From Propionibacterium sp. (GTDB lineage Bacteria; Actinomycetota; Actinomycetes; Propionibacteriales; Propionibacteriaceae), in assembly GCA_012517965.1 (NCBI GenBank), contig JAAYTZ010000028.1, positions 1 through 36,575 on the forward strand: a stretch of DNA of 36,575 nt, read 5' to 3'. A program made the position numbers and the translations under genes. The notes below the pieces were generated by a model. The model was given only the letters and a program-made list of their open reading frames with translations. It was not told the DNA's origin and did no database searches. Positions 21,446 to 33,455 of the stretch are shown piece after piece. How positions within the stretch are numbered: position 1 is the first letter of the stretch; every line of letters begins with the position of its first letter.

Positions 21446-22396
21446 CTACCTGCGCGTCCGATCGATGAGCGCCATCGCGGTCTGCAGGTAGATCCGCCCG
21501 GACAGCGGAGCGGGCCCGTTCACCAGCGCCAACCCGTGGGCCACCCGCTGCAGGTACCCCCACTGCCAGATCAGCTCGGCGTCGGCCCCGGTGAGTTCGG
21601 CCAGGTGGGCGCACCAGCCGCGCACCAGCACGACGGCGTCCTCGGCGTGGAGAAGGGGCCGGGTGCCCTCCCGGATCATGACGCCCAGGTCGCACTCTCG
21701 CTCCCCCCGCAGCCCGTGGGGCGAGATCAGCACGTGCCCGCTCTCCGCTCCCGGACGCAGGGTCCTGACCTGCCGGAAGGAGGACGGCACCGGGTCACCG
21801 TGCAACAGCACGTCGTCCTCGGGGCGGCTGTCGTCCAGGCGGTGCTGGGCGTAGAGCAGTGCCCGTTCGATGGCGGGCTGGCAGTCCGGCACGTCGACCG
21901 GCGGCGGATTCGCCTCGATCAGGCCCCGGAGCACCGCCGCGGGATGGGCGTCCGGCGCCGCGGCGGCCGACACCGGCACCGTCCAGGCCGCCATCAACGT
22001 GCGCGTCACCACCTCGAGGACGTGGGCGTCGGCGCCGGTCTCGGTCGGCGGCAGTTCGAGCGCCTCCCCGAGAGCCTCCAGCAACAGGGCGTTGCGGCTG
22101 GCGTCTGCCTCCAGCAGGAGGGCGTAGCCCCGCCCCTCGGCGGCCCGCAGCACCCGCTCCTCGGTGACGAACCGGTGCTGCTGGGGCCAGACCTTGATGA
22201 CCACCGGTTCGGTGCCGCGGCGACCGCGGACGACCAGCGCCTGGCTGAACGAGTCGACGGCGTAGCCCACCTCGACCCCCCACAGTTCAGCGCACTCCGC
22301 AACCAGGTGCGGGGCACGCTCCAGCCAGCCGGCGTACTGGGGACCCAACTGCGCGACCCGCTCCCGCACGGCGTCGGGAATGCTCACCCACTCCAT
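21446..22396 (-). CDS. Catalytically degenerate paralogue of the APH(6)-like kinase
   Basis: A 316-residue protein homologous along its length to the next gene, for example W-Q-W-x-x-x-x-R-V-x-x-G-L in the C-terminal part and V-x-V-R-G-W-C-A near 265. The catalytic loop reads L-L-H-G-D-P-V-P-S-S-F: H199 and D201 remain, but the Asn that binds metal is Ser206. The downstream D-P-D-G has become S-P-H-G, so the second metal ligand is lost. The N-lobe lysine (P-V-V-I-K-V-W) is kept. Phosphotransfer is therefore doubtful, while nucleotide binding may persist. ATG 22396 lies 13 bp after the rne stop; a GTG at 22387 is also possible. Loss of function by drift or a regulatory pseudokinase role are both open. 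Confidence 0.75.
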   Translation of the reverse strand: MEWVSIPDAVRERVAQLGPQYAGWLERAPHLVAECAELWGVEVGYAVDSFSQALVVRGRRGTEPVVIKVWPQQHRFVTEERVLRAAEGRGYALLLEADASRNALLLEALGEALELPPTETGADAHVLEVVTRTLMAAWTVPVSAAAAPDAHPAAVLRGLIEANPPPVDVPDCQPAIERALLYAQHRLDDSRPEDDVLLHGDPVPSSFRQVRTLRPGAESGHVLISPHGLRGERECDLGVMIREGTRPLLHAEDAVVLVRGWCAHLAELTGADAELIWQWGYLQRVAHGLALVNGPAPLSGRIYLQTAMALIDRTRR

Positions 22397-22409
22397 GACG
22401 TGGCCCGCG

Positions 22410-25037
22410 TCACTCGGACGCCGGCTGCCCCTGTCCCTGGCTGCGTGGCGAGTTCCGGCCCCGGCGGTGGTTCTGGTCCCGTTCGCCGCCGTCCGCCGGC
22501 GCCTGAGAACCGACCGGAGCGGCATGGATGTGATAGCCGCGTCCCTTGCACGTCTCGCAGGGCACGGTGAACGCCTCGAGCAGGCCGGTGCCGATCCTCT
22601 TCCGGGTCATCTGGACCAGGCCGAGGCTGGTCACCTCGGCGACCTGGTGCCGGGTCCGGTCCCGGCCCAGGCACTCGACGAGCCGGCGCAGCAGCAACTC
22701 CCGGTTGGCGGGCAGCACCATGTCGATGAAGTCGATCACGATGATGCCGCCGATGTCGCGCAGGCGGAGCTGACGCACGATCTCCTCGGCGGCCTCGAGG
22801 TTGTTGGACGTGACGGTGGCCTCCAGGTTGCCCTGCGTGCCGGTGAATTTGCCGGTGTTGACGTCGATGACCGTCATGGCCTCGGTGCGGTCGATGACCA
22901 GCGACCCGCCGGAAGGCAGGTGGACCTTGCGCTCCAGCGCCTTGGCCACCTGCTCGTCGATCCGGTAGTGCTCGAACAGGTCCCCGTCCGTCCAGCGGTT
23001 CCACTGGACGAGCCGCTCCTGCAGGTGCGGCGCCACGTGCGTGACATAGGCCTGGACCGTTTCGTAGGCGTCGGCGCCCTGGCCGTCGCTGTCGACGACC
23101 AGTTGCGAGAAGTCCTCGGTGAACAGGTCGCGAACGATCCGCACGGTCAGGTCGGGCTCGCTGTAGAGCAGCTGGGGGCTGTTGCCCTGGGCGACCTTCT
23201 TCTCGATGACCTCCCATTGGGCCTTGAGTCGGCTGACGTCGCGGACGAGTTCGTCCTCGGACGCCCCCTCCGCCGCGGTCCGCACGATCACCGACGCGTT
23301 CTCTCCCACCAGCGCGTCCAGGATGCCCTTGAGCCGGGCGCGCTCGTTCTCGGGCAGCTTCCGCGAGATTCCCGACAGTTGGCCGCCGGGGCTGTACACG
23401 ACGTAGCGACCCGGGATCGAGATGTGGCTCGTCAGGCGCGCACCCTTCGCGCCGACCGGGTCCTTGGTCACCTGAACCAGAACGGCCTGGCCGGACTTCA
23501 GCACCTTCTCGACCTTCCGGTCGGTTCCGGCGGCGCCGAACGAGTCCCAGTCGACCTCGCCCGCGTACAGGACGGCGTTGCGGCCGCGGCCGATGTCGAC
23601 GAAGGCGGCCTCCATGCTGGGCAGCACGTTCTGCACGCGGCCCAGGTAGATGTTGCCGATCATGGACGCCGACGAGTCCCGGTCGACGTAGTGCTCGACG
23701 AGGATGCCGTCCTCCAGCACGCCGATCTGCGTGTAGTCGTCGCGCTGCCGGATGACCATCTTCCGGTCCACCGACTCGCGGCGCGCGAGGAACTCGGCCT
23801 CCGAGAGGATGGGCGCCCGGCGGCGTCCGGCCGCGCGGCCCTCACGCCGCCGCTGCCGCTTGGCCTCCAGGCGGGTCGACCCCTCGATCCCGGTGATCTG
23901 GTCGGCCGCCTCGCCCCGGCCCGGCTCGCCGCCCGAGCGCGAGCGGCGCGGCTCGCGGACCCGGACGACGACGTCGACGCCATCCTCGACGGCCTCCTCA
24001 CCGCCGTCCTCGCCGCGACGGCGGCGACGACGACGGCGACGGCTCGCGGATTCCCCGACCTGCTCGGCCGCGCCCTCGGCCTCGGCCGGCAGGGCCTCCT
24101 CGTCCTCGGCGGCGCCCTCGGCCTCCTCGGCCTCCTCGGCCTCACCCTCGGTCCGGTCACCGACGCGACGACGCCGACGCCCGCCGCGCCGCCTGCGCCG
24201 GCGCCGGGCCAGCGCCTCGTCGGACTCGGTCTCCTCGGTCGCCTCCGACTCCTCGGGCTCCTCGGTCGCCTCGGTCTCCTCAGACTGCTCGGGCTCCTCC
24301 GACCGCTCGGTCGCGTCCGTGGCCGGTTCCTCCGGCGTCCCGGCCTCCTGAGGCAGCTCCTCCGGGACCTCCTCATCGGCCTCCGCGGCCGGTTCCCCGG
24401 TCGCCTCTCCGGGCAGGACCTCCTCGGCCACCGGACCTTCGGGCACCTCGTCGGCGGAGCCACGCCGGGACGCCAGGGCGGCGGCCAGGTTGTCGAGGGC
24501 GCCCGCCACGTCGGTGGCGCCCAGCGCCCCCTCGGGCGCCTGGCCCGCGCGGCGGGTGGTGCGGCGACGCCTGGCCGCCTCCAGAGCGGCCAGACTGGCG
24601 GCCACGTCCTCGGCCGGGACGGACGCGGCCGCGGTGTCCGCAGCCTCCTTCGTCGCGGAGGCGAGATCCGCCACTGGCTCCGGTGCGACCTCCTCGGGCG
24701 CGGTCGGCTCGGCACGTTCCACCGGCGGGCCGGCGGGCCGCGACGCGCGCTTGCGGGGCGTCCGGGCCGGTTTCTCGGCGGGGGCGGGGGGCGGCGGGGC
24801 GGCGTCCGCGATCTCGATGACCTCCGCCTCGACGAACGCGGGCTCGGTGCGCTCGATCGCCGCGGGCTCGGGGGCGGCGATCAGTTCCCGGGGCGGGACG
24901 GCCGCCGGGATCTCGGCCGGCGGCCCCGCGGGCCTGCTGGCCGACCGCCGCCGCCGGGGGGGTTGGGCCGCAGCGGCCTGATTCTCGTCCGCGACGTCGT
25001 CCGTCGTGGGGGTTTCGGGTGCGTCAGCGTCGAGCAT
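22410..25037 (-). CDS. rne: Ribonuclease E/G
   Basis: An 875-residue endoribonuclease that starts mRNA decay and matures rRNA. The first 400 residues are low-complexity and probably disordered: Ala/Pro/Glu-rich, then acidic repeats (E-E-P-E-Q-S-E-E-T-E) alternating with arginine blocks ([14 protein letters not shown]). The S1 domain lies near 455-550 (G-N-I-Y-L-G-R-V-Q-N-V-L-P-S-M-E-A-A-F-V-D-I-G). The catalytic D-V-N-T-G-K-F is near 725 and D-F-I-D-M near 770. C-E-T-C-K-G-R-G (near 833) is the Zn-link. A basic tail follows. ATG 25037 has GGAG upstream. N-terminal extension of this kind is typical of actinobacterial enzymes. Confidence 0.95.
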   Translation of the reverse strand: MLDADAPETPTTDDVADENQAAAAQPPRRRRSASRPAGPPAEIPAAVPPRELIAAPEPAAIERTEPAFVEAEVIEIADAAPPPPAPAEKPARTPRKRASRPAGPPVERAEPTAPEEVAPEPVADLASATKEAADTAAASVPAEDVAASLAALEAARRRRTTRRAGQAPEGALGATDVAGALDNLAAALASRRGSADEVPEGPVAEEVLPGEATGEPAAEADEEVPEELPQEAGTPEEPATDATERSEEPEQSEETEATEEPEESEATEETESDEALARRRRRRRGGRRRRRVGDRTEGEAEEAEEAEGAAEDEEALPAEAEGAAEQVGESASRRRRRRRRRGEDGGEEAVEDGVDVVVRVREPRRSRSGGEPGRGEAADQITGIEGSTRLEAKRQRRREGRAAGRRRAPILSEAEFLARRESVDRKMVIRQRDDYTQIGVLEDGILVEHYVDRDSSASMIGNIYLGRVQNVLPSMEAAFVDIGRGRNAVLYAGEVDWDSFGAAGTDRKVEKVLKSGQAVLVQVTKDPVGAKGARLTSHISIPGRYVVYSPGGQLSGISRKLPENERARLKGILDALVGENASVIVRTAAEGASEDELVRDVSRLKAQWEVIEKKVAQGNSPQLLYSEPDLTVRIVRDLFTEDFSQLVVDSDGQGADAYETVQAYVTHVAPHLQERLVQWNRWTDGDLFEHYRIDEQVAKALERKVHLPSGGSLVIDRTEAMTVIDVNTGKFTGTQGNLEATVTSNNLEAAEEIVRQLRLRDIGGIIVIDFIDMVLPANRELLLRRLVECLGRDRTRHQVAEVTSLGLVQMTRKRIGTGLLEAFTVPCETCKGRGYHIHAAPVGSQAPADGGERDQNHRRGRNSPRSQGQGQPASE

Positions 25038-26040: not shown

Positions 26041-26709
26041 TTACCGGCTCGCCAGCAGGGCCGTCAGGTCGGCGACGCCGAGGCCGGACAGGCTCGGCCG
26101 GACCGCGAGGCGTCCCCCGGCGTCGAACGTGCCGACGGTGGGCACGGCCAGCACCGCACAGCCGGCCGCCAGGCCAGCCGCCACCCCGGGGGGCGAGTCC
26201 TCGATCACGACGCTGTCCCCGGGTCGGACGCCGAGGGCGTCGGCCGCCGTCAGGTAGGGCTCGGGGTGCGGCTTGCGGTGCCGGACCTCGTCGCCGGCGA
26301 TCACGAACCCGAAGCGCACCTCGGTGAGACGGACCAGGACGCTGTCCAGGTAGGAGCGCACCGAGGTCGACACGACGGCCTGGGGCACGCCAGCGTCCGC
26401 CAGTTCGAGGGCCAGCTCGCGGGCGCCCGCCGCCCAGGGGAGGGGGCCTTCCCGGAACGCGGCCGTCATCCGCCGCCACATCTCGGCCTCTACCTCGACG
26501 GGGTCGAGGTCCAGCCGGGCGACCGACCCGATGTAGGCGATGCTCTCGGCCATCGTCCGCCCCACCGTGTGCTGGTGGAAGTCCGCGGGCAGTTCGGCCC
26601 CCAACTCGAGGGCGAACGCGTGCTGCATGGCGGCCCACCGGGGTTCGGTGTCCATCAGCGAGCCGTCGAAGTCCCACAGGACGGCCGCGGGCAGGCGTCC
26701 GGCCGTCAT
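26041..26709 (-). CDS. HAD superfamily phosphatase (beta-phosphoglucomutase-like)
   Basis: A 222-residue HAD hydrolase. V-L-W-D-F-D-G-S-L-M-D-T-E gives motif I, with the nucleophile and acid/base aspartates. A helical cap follows. V-V-S-T-S is motif II. R-K-P-H-P-E-P-Y is motif III with the lysine, and V-I-E-D-S-P-P-G-V-A-A-G-L-A-A-G motif IV. This places it in the subfamily I group with phosphoglycolate phosphatase and beta-phosphoglucomutase; the substrate is unknown. The ATG overlaps the stop of the radical SAM gene by 4 bp (ATGA). It lies between two genes that are normally adjacent. Confidence 0.9.
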   Translation of the reverse strand: MTAGRLPAAVLWDFDGSLMDTEPRWAAMQHAFALELGAELPADFHQHTVGRTMAESIAYIGSVARLDLDPVEVEAEMWRRMTAAFREGPLPWAAGARELALELADAGVPQAVVSTSVRSYLDSVLVRLTEVRFGFVIAGDEVRHRKPHPEPYLTAADALGVRPGDSVVIEDSPPGVAAGLAAGCAVLAVPTVGTFDAGGRLAVRPSLSGLGVADLTALLASR

Positions 26710-28655
26710 GCCGGCCCCGGCGCCGCGGCGGGCGGCAGCAGGTGCCGTCCCGTGGGACCGACCTCGGTCCGGGTGCCCAGCGAGGTGCAGACGCCGCAGT
26801 CGTAACAGCCGTGCCAGCGGCAGTCGGCGGTGGCGTCCTCGGCCAGGGCGGCCTGCCAGTCGTCCCACAGCCAGTTCCGGTCGAGCCCCAGATCGAGGTG
26901 GTCCCAGGGCAGGACCTCGTCCCACCCGCGCTCCCGCGTGGTGTACCAGGCCACGTCGACGCCGGTGCCCGCCAGCCCCGACTCGGCGGCGGCCAGCCAG
27001 CGGTCGAGGTCGAAGTGCTCGCTCCAGCCGTCGAACCGGGCGCCCGCCCGGAACGCCGCCTCGATGACCGGACCCAGCCGCCGATCGCCCCGGGCCAGCA
27101 GGCCCTCGATCACGCCGGGGCGCCCGTCGCTGTACCGGACGCCGATGGCCCGGCCGTACCGCCGGTCGGCGCGGACCCGGTCGCGCAACAGCCGGAGCCG
27201 ACGGTCGATGGTCTCGATGTCGGCCTGCCCGGCCCACTGGAACGGGGTGTGCGGCTTGGGCACGAACGCGCCGATGCTCACGGTGCAGTGAATGTCGCGC
27301 TGGCCGGTCGCCCGTCGGCCGGCCTCGATCACCCGCGCCGCCAGGTCGGCGATGGCCACCACGTCCTCGTCGGTCTCCGTGGGCAGCCCGCACATGAAGT
27401 AGAGCTTGACACTGCGCCAGCCGCCGGTGAACGCGGTGGCCACCGTCTGGAGCAGATCCTCCTCGGTGACGCCCTTGTTGATGACGCGGCGCAGACGCTC
27501 CGAGCCGCCCTCCGGCGCGAAGGTCAGGCCGGCGCGGCGTCCGTTGCGGGCCAGTTCCTCGGCGAGTTCGACGTTGAAGGCGTCGACCCGCGTCGAGGGC
27601 AGCGACAGCGACACGTTGGTGCCGGCGTACCGGTCGGCGAGTTCGCGGGCGATGGACCCGATCTCGGAGTGGTCGGCGCTGGACAGGGAGAGCAGCCCCA
27701 CTTCCTCCAGCCCGGTGGCCGCCAGCCCGGCCTCGACCATGCGTCCGATGGTGTCGATGCTCCGTTCCCGGACGGGCCGGGTCACCATGCCGGCCTGACA
27801 GAAGCGGCATCCCTGCGTGCACCCGCGGAAGATCTCCACCGAGTAGCGCTCGTGCACGGTCTCGGCTAGGGGCACGAGGGGCGCCTTCGGGTAGGGCCAG
27901 TCGTCGAGGTCCTGCAGGGTGTACTTCTCGACGCGGGCGGGGATGCCGGGCCGGTTCGGCCGCACCGCTTCGATGCGGCCGTCGGGCAGGTAGCCGACGT
28001 CGTAGAAGCGGGGCACGTAGCAGCCGGCGGTGATCGCGAGCCGCTCGAGCAGCCCGTCCCGGCCCCCGGGTCGGCCGGCGGCCTTCCACGCCCGGAGCAC
28101 GCGGGAGACGGCCAGCACGGCCTCCTCGCCGTCGCCGAGCACGGCGGCGTCGATGAAGTCGGCGATCGGCTCGGGGTTGACGGCCCCGTGCCCGCCCACG
28201 ATGACGATCGGGTGGTCCCCGGTTCGGTCCGCGGCGTGCAGCGGAATACCCGCCAGGTCGAGGGCGGCCAGCAGGTTCGTGTACCCCAGCTCCGTCGACA
28301 GGCTGACCCCCAGCAGATCGAAGGCGCCGACCGGGCGGTGGTTCTCCAGCGTGAACTGCGGCAGCCGGTGCGCACTGAGCAGCTCGGCTAGGTCGGGCCA
28401 GACCGCGAAGGACCGCTCGGCGAGGATCCAGTCCTGCTCGTTGAGCACCTCGTACAGGATCGCCAGGCCCTGGTTGGGCTGGCCGACGGCGTAGGTGTCG
28501 GGGTACATCAGCACCCAGCGCACCTCGGCATCGGCCCAGTCCTTGCGGATCGAATTCACCTCGCCGCCCACGTACTGGATCGGTCGCGCCACGCTCGCCA
28601 GCAGTGGCTCGAGCCGGTCGTAGAGCGAGTGCGGCTCGCGGGTCACGTCAGTCAT
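26706..28655 (-). CDS. TIGR03960-type B12-binding radical SAM protein
   Basis: A 649-residue protein. An N-terminal B12-binding-like region (about 40-190) includes V-I-V-G-G-H-G-A-V-N-P-E-P. The radical SAM core follows with C-T-Q-G-C-R-F-C near 278 (C-x-x-x-C-x-x-C for the 4Fe-4S cluster) and continues with G-L-T-F-A-P-E-G-G-S-E-R-L-R-R-V-I-N-K. Near the C-terminus C-R-W-H-G-C-Y-D-C-G-V-C is an extra cysteine cluster, possibly for a second metal centre. The family is paired with DUF2344; the reaction is unknown. ATG 28655 is preceded by TAGGCT ending 9 nt upstream, so the transcript may have a leader of only about three bases. Confidence 0.92.
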   Translation of the reverse strand: MTDVTREPHSLYDRLEPLLASVARPIQYVGGEVNSIRKDWADAEVRWVLMYPDTYAVGQPNQGLAILYEVLNEQDWILAERSFAVWPDLAELLSAHRLPQFTLENHRPVGAFDLLGVSLSTELGYTNLLAALDLAGIPLHAADRTGDHPIVIVGGHGAVNPEPIADFIDAAVLGDGEEAVLAVSRVLRAWKAAGRPGGRDGLLERLAITAGCYVPRFYDVGYLPDGRIEAVRPNRPGIPARVEKYTLQDLDDWPYPKAPLVPLAETVHERYSVEIFRGCTQGCRFCQAGMVTRPVRERSIDTIGRMVEAGLAATGLEEVGLLSLSSADHSEIGSIARELADRYAGTNVSLSLPSTRVDAFNVELAEELARNGRRAGLTFAPEGGSERLRRVINKGVTEEDLLQTVATAFTGGWRSVKLYFMCGLPTETDEDVVAIADLAARVIEAGRRATGQRDIHCTVSIGAFVPKPHTPFQWAGQADIETIDRRLRLLRDRVRADRRYGRAIGVRYSDGRPGVIEGLLARGDRRLGPVIEAAFRAGARFDGWSEHFDLDRWLAAAESGLAGTGVDVAWYTTRERGWDEVLPWDHLDLGLDRNWLWDDWQAALAEDATADCRWHGCYDCGVCTSLGTRTEVGPTGRHLLPPAAAPGPA

Positions 28656-30561: not shown

Positions 30562-30718
30562 CGAGTTCTCGGCCGTCTGCCGCCACCGTTCGCACGAATT
30601 CGCCGGTAGTCGACCCTGCTTCCGCCAGGGTCTGGCTGGCCAGCAGGAGGCGGGGCGCTGGGCCGTCACCATGTGGTCGGGCCGCCGAGGCGCCGGTGAT
30701 GCGGGCAAGGATGGGCGG

Positions 30719-32074
30719 GTGATCACCGCAATGGTTTCGTTCAAGGTCAAGAAGGGCGCGCTCACCCGGGTGGCCACCGAGCTGAGCGCGATCGAGGAGG
30801 TGGCGGAGGTCTACTCGACGACCGGCCCCTTCGACCTGCTCGCCCACGTCCAGGTCCGCGAGTACGAGAACCTGTCCGACGTCGTCAACGACAAGATCGC
30901 CAGCCTGCCGGGCATCAAGGACACCATGACGGTGACGGCGTTCAAGCAGTACAAGTTCCGGCGGCTGGACGAGGGCGCCAGCCCGGGCTCGGTCGTGGCG
31001 CCTGGGGAGCCGGACGTCCCCGGCCCCACGGCGTCCGTGCGCGGCCGCACGGCGATCGCACCCGTGCTGGCCAAACTCGCCGACAACTTCAACCTGGACC
31101 GCGGCGAGGTGTTCTCGGTGGTCGACGCCATCAACTCCGGCGAGCTCTCGGACGTGCAGATCGCCGGCTTCCTGGTGGGCCTGACGAACAAGGGCCCCAC
31201 GGTCGCCGAGGTCGCCGCGATCGCCGACGCGATGCGCCGGGTTGCGGTGCCGATCCGGGTGACGGTCGACGGCGAGCTGTCGGACACGTGCGGGACGGGG
31301 GGTGGATTGACGACGTTCAACGTCAGCTCCGCGAACGCGATCCTGGCCGCAGCCGGGGGCGTCCGGGTCGCCAAGCACGGCAGCCGTTCGATCTCGTCGT
31401 CCTCGGGCAGCGCCGACGTGCTGGAAGCGCTCGGCATCGACATCGACCCGACCCCCGAGCAGGCGGCCCGCCTGATCGAGACCGTGGGGATCAGCTTCCT
31501 GAACGCCCCCACGTTCCACCCCATCATGGGGCGGGTGTTCGGCCCCGAGAACGAGCTGGGCATCAAGTCGATCTTCTTCACGATCATCGGCCCGCTGATC
31601 AACCCGGCCGGAGCCCGGAATCACTCGATGGGCGTGTACAAGCCGGAGTTGGTGTCGATGATGGCGCAGGTGGTCGCCGAGATGGACTTCAACCACGTGC
31701 TCATCGCGCACGGGGTGGACGGCCTGGACGAGCTCTCGCTCGTCGGGCGGACGATGATCGCGGACGTGTACCGCGGCAGCATCCGCTACGACGAGATCGC
31801 GCCGGAGGACTTCGGCCTGCGCCGCTGCACACCGGCGGAGATCGCGGGCGGCTCCCCCGAGCGGAACGCCCAGATCATCCGCGACCTCTTCACCGGTCGC
31901 GAGACGGGAGCGCGCCGGGACTTCCTGCTGCTCAACTCGGGCGCGACGCTGTACGTCAACGACAAGGCGGCCTCGATCGCCGACGGCATCGCCCTGGCCC
32001 GCGCCCTGCTCGACTCCGGGGCGGCGAACGCCAAGCTCGACGAGCTCATCGCCGCCTCGCGGGCCGCCGGATGA
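30719..32074 (+). CDS. trpD: Lrp/AsnC effector-binding (RAM) domain fused to anthranilate phosphoribosyltransferase TrpD
   Basis: A 451-residue two-domain protein in one uninterrupted frame. Residues 1-80 (from V-I-T-A-M-V-S-F-K-V) match a stand-alone Lrp/AsnC ligand-binding domain: V-A-E-V-Y-S-T-T-G-P-F-D-L-L-A and V-V-N-D-K-I-A-S-L-P-G-I. There is no DNA-binding HTH. After a Pro/Gly linker of about 25 residues the TrpD enzyme begins. It has S-D-T-C-G-T-G-G-G (PRPP site), N-V-S-S-A-N, V-A-K-H-G-S-R-S-I-S-S-S-S-G-S-A-D-V-L-E-A-L-G, and G-P-L-I-N-P-A. TrpD transfers phosphoribose to anthranilate. The GTG at 30719 has AAGGA upstream and gives the usual domain start; an in-frame ATG at 30671 has no ribosome site. 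trpC overlaps by ATGA. Confidence 0.92.
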   Translation: MITAMVSFKVKKGALTRVATELSAIEEVAEVYSTTGPFDLLAHVQVREYENLSDVVNDKIASLPGIKDTMTVTAFKQYKFRRLDEGASPGSVVAPGEPDVPGPTASVRGRTAIAPVLAKLADNFNLDRGEVFSVVDAINSGELSDVQIAGFLVGLTNKGPTVAEVAAIADAMRRVAVPIRVTVDGELSDTCGTGGGLTTFNVSSANAILAAAGGVRVAKHGSRSISSSSGSADVLEALGIDIDPTPEQAARLIETVGISFLNAPTFHPIMGRVFGPENELGIKSIFFTIIGPLINPAGARNHSMGVYKPELVSMMAQVVAEMDFNHVLIAHGVDGLDELSLVGRTMIADVYRGSIRYDEIAPEDFGLRRCTPAEIAGGSPERNAQIIRDLFTGRETGARRDFLLLNSGATLYVNDKAASIADGIALARALLDSGAANAKLDELIAASRAAG

Positions 32075-32775
32075 CCGGGTCGCTGGTCGCCTCGATCAGG
32101 GCCCGGCAGCGGGCGGGGATCTTCCCCGTCCTCGGCGAGGTGAAGGTGCGCTCCCCGAAGGAGGGCGACCTGCTGGCCGGACGCGATCCCGTCGCCTACG
32201 CGCGCCTGATGGCCGCCGCCGGCGTCGCCGGCATCAGCGTGGTGACCGAACCCGAGCACTTCGGCGGATCGCTGGACCTGCTTCGCACCGTCGCCGCCGC
32301 CGTCGGCGTCCCGGTGCTGGGCAAGGACTTCGTGACCACCCCCGCGCAGGTCGACGCGTTGGCGGACGCCGGGGCCGCCGCCGTGCTGTTGATCGCGGCC
32401 CACCTCACCCCCGCAGCGCTGGCCGACCTGGTCGCCCACGCCCACACCCGCGGCGTCGAGGCCCTGGTCGAGGCGCACACCGCCGAAGAAGTGCGCACGG
32501 TCGCGGACGTGCCGGCCGACCTGTTCGGGATCAACAACCGCGACATCACGCTCCTTGAGGTGGACGACGGCGACGTGACGCGGACCGGCCGGCTGGCCCG
32601 GCTGTACCCGCCGGGGCGTCCGGTCGTCAGCGAGAGCGCGATCGGTTCGCCGACCGACGTTCGCCGGGCCGCGGCGGCCGGAGCGGACGCCGTCCTCGTC
32701 GGCACGGCGGCGCTGCGCGCCCCCGACCCGGTGGCCTTCCTGCGCACGCTGGCGGGGGCGGGCTGGCCGGCATGA
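32071..32775 (+). CDS. trpC: Indole-3-glycerol phosphate synthase, short form
   Basis: A 234-residue TIM-barrel enzyme that closes the indole ring in tryptophan synthesis. The catalytic residues are all present: E and K in L-G-E-V-K-V-R-S-P-K-E-G, K in V-L-G-K-D-F, E in A-L-V-E-A-H-T, N in G-I-N-N-R-D, and S in V-S-E-S-A-I. The last reads S-E-S-G-I in most homologues, so a phosphate-loop glycine is alanine here. The protein is about 30 residues shorter than the usual form because the N-terminal helix is nearly absent. It overlaps trpD and trpF by 4 bp on each side, which implies coupled translation. Specificity for the tryptophan route is very likely but the divergence is worth noting. Confidence 0.9.
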   Translation: MTGSLVASIRARQRAGIFPVLGEVKVRSPKEGDLLAGRDPVAYARLMAAAGVAGISVVTEPEHFGGSLDLLRTVAAAVGVPVLGKDFVTTPAQVDALADAGAAAVLLIAAHLTPAALADLVAHAHTRGVEALVEAHTAEEVRTVADVPADLFGINNRDITLLEVDDGDVTRTGRLARLYPPGRPVVSESAIGSPTDVRRAAAAGADAVLVGTAALRAPDPVAFLRTLAGAGWPA

Positions 32776-33455
32776 CTTGGGCCAAGATCTGCGGGCTCTG
32801 CCGTCCCGACGACGTGGCGCTCTGCGCGGCGTCCGGCGCTGACGCGCTGGGCTTCGTCGTGGACTACCCCGCCGACGTGCCGTGGAACCTCACCCTGCCG
32901 CAGGCCCGCGCCCTGATGGCGCTCGTGCCCCGGGACGTCGAGCGGGTGGCCGTCGTCGGCGAGGACCCCGATCACATCCTCACGATCGCGGACGCCCTGG
33001 GCCCCGACCTCGTCCAGTTGCACGCCGACGAGGACCCGGCCACCACGGCCCTGCTGGTCGACGCGCTGCACGCCCGCGGCGTCCGGGTCGCGAAGGCCCT
33101 GCGCTTCGACGTGGCGTCCGGGGCGCTGCGGACCCGCCACGCCGTCGGGGACGACCCGGCCGCCGCCGCCCGGCGCTACGTCGACCTCGGCGTCGACGTG
33201 CTGCTGGTCGACTCGATGAGCGCCACCCGCCCCGCCGGCACGGGCCGCACGGTCGACCTCTCGGTGGCCCGGTCGATCCGGGACGGGGCCGGCGTGCCGG
33301 TCGTGCTGGCCGGTGGCCTGCGCCCCGACAACGTGGCCGCGGCGATCGCGGCCGTGGAACCCAACGGGGTCGACGTCATCAGCGGCGTCGAGCACCCGGT
33401 CGGCCGCAAGGACCCGGCCCAGGTCCGGGCGTTCCTGGCGGCCGTGCGAGGCTGA
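32772..33455 (+). CDS. trpF: Phosphoribosylanthranilate isomerase
   Basis: A 227-residue TIM-barrel enzyme that converts phosphoribosylanthranilate to its ribulose form, the step between TrpD and TrpC. The N-terminal W-A-K-I-C-G-L carries the general-base cysteine. L-V-Q-L-H-A-D-E, V-L-L-V-D-S with the acid aspartate, V-L-A-G-G-L-R-P-D-N-V and G-V-D-V-I-S-G-V-E are the further signatures. The usual V-D-x-S-S-G-V-E reads V-D-V-I-S-G-V-E. In many actinobacteria this gene is missing and PriA (HisA-like) does the job, so a dedicated TrpF is notable. The ATG overlaps trpC by 4 bp. Confidence 0.9.
   Translation: MTWAKICGLCRPDDVALCAASGADALGFVVDYPADVPWNLTLPQARALMALVPRDVERVAVVGEDPDHILTIADALGPDLVQLHADEDPATTALLVDALHARGVRVAKALRFDVASGALRTRHAVGDDPAAAARRYVDLGVDVLLVDSMSATRPAGTGRTVDLSVARSIRDGAGVPVVLAGGLRPDNVAAAIAAVEPNGVDVISGVEHPVGRKDPAQVRAFLAAVRG

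Follow-up and report, generated by a model that had tools for sequence, protein, structure and literature searches.

The window, meaning the whole stretch of 36,575 nucleotides that was analysed, comes from a Propionibacterium genome (G000). On its forward strand it carries a gene in which a RAM domain, the ligand-binding domain of Lrp/AsnC regulators, is fused to a TrpD-type phosphoribosyltransferase (Table 1). A single stop-free frame of 451 codons plus stop runs from GTG 30719 to the TGA ending at 32074. An AAGGA sequence can be seen by eye 7 bases upstream of the GTG, and homologues of the fusion start at the same residue. The four Pfam matches of the protein, which begins at the RAM domain, include AsnC_trans_reg, Glycos_trans_3N (PF02885, residues 115–175, 3.3e-16) and Glycos_transf_3 (PF00591, residues 186–436, 3e-79), and no HTH family is among them. 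On the NCBIfam equivalog TIGR01245 (trpD) the fusion scores 346 bits against a cut-off of 199.05, and its TrpD half shares about 36–41% identity with canonical TrpD. An AlphaFold2 model built on a 29-row alignment has a mean pLDDT of 87; in blocks of 10 residues, residues 1–70 lie at 77–92 and the TrpD region mostly at 87–99, and residues 76–99 fall below 50. All of the best 50 Foldseek hits listed for this model were TrpD chains, so that the structure search is silent on the RAM part; the closest solved relative of the RAM half was the stand-alone RAM protein 2djw (1.8e-14). Frame, Pfam, NCBIfam and AlphaFold2 thus confirm the initial annotation, which described an HTH-less RAM domain joined through a linker to a complete TrpD fold in one frame. 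In the sequence as assembled the linker has no stop, and recurrence of the architecture in other genomes (below) argues against a sequencing fault there. It had also envisaged translation restarting at an internal GTG. Between 30951 and 31100 there are just three ATG, GTG or TTG codons, all of them in-frame GTGs (30995, 31037 and 31064), and no Shine–Dalgarno-like sequence was seen in the 16 bases before any of these linker starts, which disfavours a restart in the linker. Elsewhere in the window, the only Rfam match was a tRNA, and the reverse strand encodes a radical SAM protein with a Radical_SAM_N2 domain (26706–28655) and a protein with a weak match to APH_6_hur, an aminoglycoside/hydroxyurea kinase family (21446–22525; 31.5 bits against a cut-off of 27).

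Table 1. Positions in the window of the fusion gene, its domains, the two genes that follow it and the codons discussed in the text.
Feature	Position	Strand	Basis
RAM-TrpD fusion gene (451 aa plus stop)	30719..32074	+	Frame, Pfam and NCBIfam
RAM (Lrp/AsnC ligand-binding) domain, residues 1–80	30719..30958	+	PF01037 at residues 7–76, 8.2e-17
Variable linker, residues 81–108	30959..31042	+	Low pLDDT and pairwise variability
TrpD-type phosphoribosyltransferase, residues 109–451	31043..32071	+	TIGR01245, 2.3e-103; best Foldseek hits
Codon Ser222, Asn138 position of M. tuberculosis TrpD (KHGN to KHGS)	31382..31384	+	Alignment
Codon Glu277, Arg193 position (anthranilate-carboxylate residue)	31547..31549	+	Alignment
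Divergent trpC	32071..32775	+	PF00218 from profile position 43
Codon Lys30 of divergent TrpC, Ser58 of S. solfataricus IGPS	32158..32160	+	Alignment
Divergent trpF	32772..33455	+	PF00697, 5.3e-27
Codon Trp38 of divergent TrpF, Arg36 of T. maritima TrpF	32883..32885	+	Alignment

The fusion gene heads a trpD-trpC-trpF set, all three proteins of which diverge from their canonical counterparts. The ATG of trpC overlaps the stop codon of the fusion gene, and the ATG of trpF that of trpC (ATGA in each case), so the three genes are very likely translated together. The divergent TrpC lacks the N-terminal part of IGPS, which is taken to be the lid helix described in excerpts of PMC7681013. Its score on the best NCBIfam TrpC model is 214 bits against a cut-off of 284, and the divergent proteins of G579, L033 and L039 are likewise below (199, 215 and 207 bits); both canonical TrpC controls pass. 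The divergent TrpF also falls below the cut-off of the best NCBIfam TrpF model, with 140 bits against 215 in the window and 92 against 216 in G579. One of the two canonical TrpF controls passes; for the other, as for L033 and L039, no row appeared within the limit of 1e-60.

A scan of GTDB genomes with two peptide patterns, an approach that picks up close relatives only, returned 16 loci. These lie in Raineyella antarctica LZ-22 (82%), a Propionibacterium MAG (G013; 66%) and 14 Desulfobacterota-type records, whose titles read Deltaproteobacteria, Desulfobacterales, Desulfobacteraceae, Syntrophaceae and similar, and which include the isolate Desulfatitalea alkaliphila. RAM and TrpD occur together in 15 of the 16 loci, namely in R. 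antarctica, the Propionibacterium MAG and 13 Desulfobacterota-type records. One locus (L045) is cut by the end of its contig, so that its protein begins with residue 8, and an internal gap in it leaves the frame intact. In the exception, a Syntrophobacterales MAG (L046, 8007–8756), TrpD is present from residue 200 only, the RAM domain and TrpD N-terminus being gone, and trpA lies just upstream of the shortened gene; this is either a true truncation or an assembly fault. Among 57 genomes searched, of which 33 belong to the window's family (G000, 12 of the same genus and 20 others), a full-length match was found in G000 and G013 alone. In the phylum of D. alkaliphila, 3/395 genomes match at E < 1e-110, all three already among the scan loci; in Actinomycetota the figure is 3/396, made up of G000 together with G579 and G535, whose TrpD of this type is RAM-less; and in the class of G579 it is 2/40 (G579 and G535). 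These low counts indicate that the fusion type is rare and patchy. None of the 114 plasmid records with a match reached 80% query coverage.

In six pairs of fusion genes, the RAM part had dN/dS values of 0.22, 0.02, 0 (no residue changed), 0.04 and 0.05, and saturation prevented a value for the last pair; for the TrpD part of the same pairs, in order, the values were 0.20, 0.09, 0.03, 0.03, 0.07 and 0.14. The linker gave dN/dS values of 0.03–0.55, with amino-acid identities of 0.38–0.92. The RAM half is under purifying selection, like the TrpD half, and both are kept. Since both halves are conserved and under selection, the fusion of a sensor to an enzyme, as first proposed, is the natural reading. 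What that proposal did not foresee is that the enzyme is a second, divergent TrpD with its anthranilate residues replaced. The accompanying idea of allosteric control was reasonable, yet it omits the more unusual fact, which is the divergent three-gene set that the fusion heads.

The fusion is not the ordinary TrpD of the cell. The set is carried by 17 distinct genomes, and 11 of them also contain canonical TrpD (in G064 a fragment only); no canonical TrpD was matched in G013, G059, G060, G063, G068 and G071. Two TrpC matches occur in 13/17 genomes, one of those in G062 being a fragment. Canonical TrpE, TrpD, TrpC and TrpF matches adjoin one another in seven (G061, G062, G065, G066, G069, G070 and G072), and TrpB is above its cut-off in all 17, once in each except for two in G071. 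The trpB-trpA pair is located directly upstream of the fused gene in 7 of the 16 loci, including the shortened L046. At two loci (L041, 1311–4093, and L045, 4829–8382) the set was seen by eye near hemA-like and sirohaem/uroporphyrin-like genes.

The set was transferred horizontally into the Propionibacteriaceae. In a maximum-likelihood tree of 44 TrpD rows (midpoint-rooted, with some long branches and with L045 left out), the 15 fused rows form one group (100/99), which joins the two RAM-less rows from G579 and G535 (100/99). Three Propionibacteriaceae rows (98/99) fall inside a 13-row group (98/98) that excludes only L041 and L042; the records behind the ‘Myxococcota’ labels in this tree bear no title beyond Deltaproteobacteria. 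Between the window and the R. antarctica locus only positions 30705–33455 are shared, at 80% identity, and no alignment extends into the 8 kb before the set or the 6.6 kb after it. A shared stretch confined to the set, together with nesting among Desulfobacterota-type rows, argues that the three genes moved as a unit into this family. Local fusion of an actinobacterial stand-alone RAM gene with trpD is not favoured, since in the TrpD tree the fused rows are a single lineage, which reached the Propionibacteriaceae from within the Desulfobacterota-type rows. Such a stand-alone gene (G000:C51, L089 and in other genomes) lies within 12 kb of canonical trpD in at least 44 of the 57 genomes, and within 300 bp in at least seven; R. 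antarctica also encodes a stand-alone RAM protein near trpD. An association of RAM with trpD may have existed before the fusion arose.

We compared active-site residues, in M. tuberculosis numbering, between 16 fused and 26 canonical TrpD rows; L046 was excluded and TrpD hits of the fetched loci beyond those put into the alignment were not used. The residues counted as the PRPP and metal set (G107, G110, S119, S142, S143, D251 and E252) are kept in 16/16 fused rows, as are H136 and R139. N138 is Ser in 16/16 (canonical rows, Asn 25/26 and Gly 1/26), R193 is Glu in 16/16 (canonical rows, Arg 26/26), and the Asp of GTGGD, present in 26/26 canonical rows, is missing from 16/16. By eye, the RAM-less sisters in G579 and G535 also have KHGS, and Glu at the Arg position. 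According to excerpts of PMC9835598, R193 holds the carboxylate of anthranilate and N138 contacts it, and substitutions at ‘N139 and R193’ impaired catalysis and raised the Km; GTGGD is termed a TrpD signature in the available part of PMC5537072. Replacement of the anthranilate-holding residues puts the substrate of the fused TrpD itself in doubt. R300, N301 and H302 are new invariant residues of the fused TrpD and could be alternative holders of a carboxylate.

The two following enzymes were compared using 15 divergent rows, comprising 13 plus the two RAM-less cases. L002 (which shares its record with L032), L038 and L043 (almost identical to L034) and L036 and L041 (truncated or absent at contig ends) were excluded, and the canonical TrpC L004 was dropped before counting. 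Arg36 of TrpF is Trp in 15/15 divergent rows (canonical Arg 9/9), and the catalytic C7 and D126 are kept in 15/15, as is E184. In simulations of TrpF, R36 shields the substrate carboxylate from E184 and makes little direct contact with the substrate (PMC9088769, in excerpt). In TrpC, Ser58 is Lys in 15/15 (canonical Ser 12/12), and catalytic K53, K110, E159, N180, R182 and S211 are all kept in 15/15. The counterpart of R182 contacts the carboxylate in some IGPS chains, and ring closure in the absence of a carboxylate is weak, about 1000 times slower (excerpts of PMC7681013); the intact R182 speaks against a simple ‘no carboxylate’ substrate. The apparent loss of carboxylate contacts in two successive enzymes forms the core of the argument for a changed acceptor.

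The RAM-less genomes G579 and G535 (98% and 94% complete) have the divergent type as their only TrpD match, in the gene order trpB-trpA-trpD-trpC-trpF, and no TrpD-TrpC-TrpF type other than this RAM-less set was seen in them. Each encodes two PF00425 proteins. The first belongs to a gene row that looks, by eye, like pabA-pabB-pabC; it passes the PabB cut-off of 328.4 (329.4 in G579 and 337.9 in G535) and fails the TrpE cut-off of 517.7 (385.7 and 379.6), its raw bits being still higher than on PabB. The second adjoins a menD-like gene, and only this context was used to assign it. The TrpE controls, taken from G557 and G483, pass TrpE (552 and 532) and fail PabB (276 and 280), and they carry PIAGT where the PabB-type proteins of G579 and G535 carry PIKGT. 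Judged by profile scores and context, no recognisable TrpE is encoded in these two near-complete genomes, and the set there would work without one; it is possible that the PabB-type enzyme serves in both roles. No kynU-like gene was seen by eye on two contig stretches of G579 and G535. TrpA of these genomes (L101, 830–1621, and L102, 329–1189) has AEG where 12 other TrpA rows have DG, a position that we take to be Asp60, which binds the indole nitrogen.

The explanation that we tentatively prefer, and to which we give close to an even chance, is that a second trpD-trpC-trpF branch, acquired by horizontal transfer and independent of anthranilate synthase (TrpE), begins with the fusion, the acceptor site being remodelled and the RAM domain giving the branch a separate point of control by an amino acid. 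We infer that the acceptor has changed, and likewise what is made, what the RAM domain binds and in which direction control runs. The catalytic half would have kept the PRPP and metal machinery of TrpD and rebuilt the aryl-amine pocket, so that the acceptor it phosphoribosylates is most likely not anthranilate, or is bound differently. From the resulting product, the divergent TrpF and TrpC would go on to make indole-glycerol phosphate, or an analogue of it, for the TrpAB of the cell. A branch that enters below TrpE would also escape TrpE feedback. FLLES, which we take to mark tryptophan feedback in TrpE, occurs in 11/11 PIAGT-type proteins examined from Desulfobacterota-type genomes; the canonical branch there is thus probably controlled at TrpE, and a lower-entering branch would need its own control. 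FLLES was not matched in the PIAGT-type (TrpE-type) proteins of G000 (L060) and R. antarctica (L059), so the feedback argument applies to the Desulfobacterota and is weaker for the genome of the window. In RAM domains, amino acids are bound between dimers and alter the assembly state, though some of these domains seem to bind none (excerpts of PMC2995911). In the fusion, the domain would probably bind an amino acid at the interfaces between RAM domains and thereby alter how the TrpD dimer assembles or how active it is.

Several observations argue for this TrpE-independent branch: the purifying selection on both halves of the fusion; N138S and R193E in every fused row, with the PRPP and metal residues kept; the change of TrpF Arg36 to Trp in every divergent row, with E184 kept; the presence of canonical TrpD beside the set in most hosts and of a full canonical E-D-C-F cluster in seven; the position of trpB-trpA upstream in seven loci and in both RAM-less relatives; the absence of canonical TrpD or recognisable TrpE from G579 and G535; and the transfer itself, seen in a stretch shared with R. 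antarctica that is confined to the set and in the nesting of the three Propionibacteriaceae rows. Against it, the TrpD half passes the equivalog cut-off, the catalytic residues of TrpC including R182 are intact, R36 had little direct substrate contact in the TrpF simulations, and linkage to trpBA fits plain tryptophan synthesis. Moreover, the TrpE-less case consists of two genomes, in one of which the PabB protein passes by 1 bit, and R300, N301 and H302 could hold the carboxylate instead. A bolder form of the proposal is possible, if doubtful: that the set is an undescribed branch which starts from a non-anthranilate aryl amine, perhaps lacking the ortho-carboxylate, arrives at indole-glycerol phosphate or an analogue without TrpE and has the RAM domain as its gate, its RAM-less form being the sole route to tryptophan or an analogue in the TrpE-less relatives. 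Among the titles and abstracts listed in searches of the open-licence literature, none describes the RAM-TrpD fusion or the divergent set, and no paper came up for anthranilate phosphoribosyltransferase together with the RAM domain.

Alternatively, the fusion could be an ordinary feedback-controlled TrpD isoenzyme that uses anthranilate, whether made or scavenged, holds its carboxylate through, for example, the invariant R300-N301-H302, and senses tryptophan through the RAM domain. Such an isoenzyme would pass TIGR01245, sit in a trp-like operon with TrpC and TrpF that adjoins trpBA in 7/16 loci, and be followed by enzymes with their catalytic residues kept, all as observed; moreover, kynurenine-derived anthranilate has been proposed to feed TrpE-less D-C-F-B-A sets in Chlamydia pecorum (excerpts of PMC3932018). 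We nevertheless regard it as unlikely, given the negative charge placed at the carboxylate site in 16/16 rows, the loss of TrpF Arg36 in the same set and the canonical TrpD that most of the host genomes (11/17) already have.

It is less probable again, and we think improbable, that the RAM domain is mainly structural, serving to dimerise or tether the enzyme (by itself or together with stand-alone RAM proteins) and sensing no amino acid. RAM is indeed an oligomerisation module, sometimes apparently ligand-free, and mixed assemblies are possible (PMC2995911, in excerpt); stand-alone partners are encoded in G000 (C51) and, near trpD, in R. antarctica. However, the RAM half is as conserved as the enzyme in close pairs even though TrpD dimerises through its own N-terminal helices (excerpts of PMC5537072), and the RAM-less sisters imply that the fold does not need it. 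That the fused TrpD has given up transferase catalysis and now serves in regulation or binding, the role proposed for YbiB-type TrpD2, would accord with the lost acceptor residues and GTGGD Asp; it seems very improbable in view of the PRPP and metal residues kept in 16/16 rows, the YbiB model score far below its cut-off and the gene order with trpC and trpF. An artefact is scarcely credible: the genome is a draft with 1.67% contamination, a second enolase on the window contig (35019–36287, forward strand) is 57% identical to the genus-type enolase on G000:C103 and 12/12 same-genus genomes lack a full-length match, but a sequencing error or two separate proteins are rejected because the architecture recurs in 15/16 loci, two of them from isolates (R. 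antarctica and D. alkaliphila), and because the linker GTGs lack a ribosome-site-like sequence. Mis-binning is rejected because the window (GC 0.721) resembles two other G000 stretches in GC (0.722 and 0.737) and in tetranucleotide correlation, which is 0.84 and 0.82 with these stretches and 0.76 from one of them to the other, although an R. antarctica stretch also gives 0.82, so that composition is no proof of host.

The fusion resembles canonical TrpD (TIGR01245; structures from M. tuberculosis and S. solfataricus) in its fold, its PRPP and metal residues and its operon with trpC and trpF, and differs from it in the missing GTGGD Asp, N138S, R193E and the N-terminal RAM domain. It should be noted that the standard model names the enzyme at the head of this transferable set a plain TrpD although it has lost the contacts by which its substrate is defined. 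If the acceptor does differ, the set would open a new route into indole chemistry and would be nature's equivalent of laboratory studies on the specificity of TrpD, TrpF and IGPS. The fusion also has a TrpD-like fold in common with the YbiB-type ‘TrpD2’ DNA-binding proteins named in the references of PMC9835598 (in excerpt), but unlike them it keeps the PRPP residues, and it scores 42.4 bits on the YbiB model against a cut-off of 185. In Chlamydia, TrpE-less trpDCFBA operons (excerpts of PMC3932018) are comparable with the D-C-F-B-A genes of G579 and G535 that lack a recognisable TrpE; they differ in that their anthranilate is thought to be kynurenine-derived through kynU. If the set is overlooked, a genome that has it but lacks TrpE would be classed as a tryptophan auxotroph or an anthranilate scavenger. 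The RAM domain itself is common to Lrp/AsnC regulators and stand-alone RAM proteins (PF01037; 2djw), whereas in the fusion no HTH was found and the domain is placed before an enzyme. In this respect the closest parallels may be TyrA-ACT and TyrA-REG (excerpts of PMC1173090), in which a small regulatory domain is likewise fused to an enzyme of the aromatic pathway. Here the domain is RAM rather than ACT or the COG4937 REG domain, and the enzyme is TrpD rather than TyrA; the RAM domain would be a sensor that sits on its enzyme in the manner of ACT domains.
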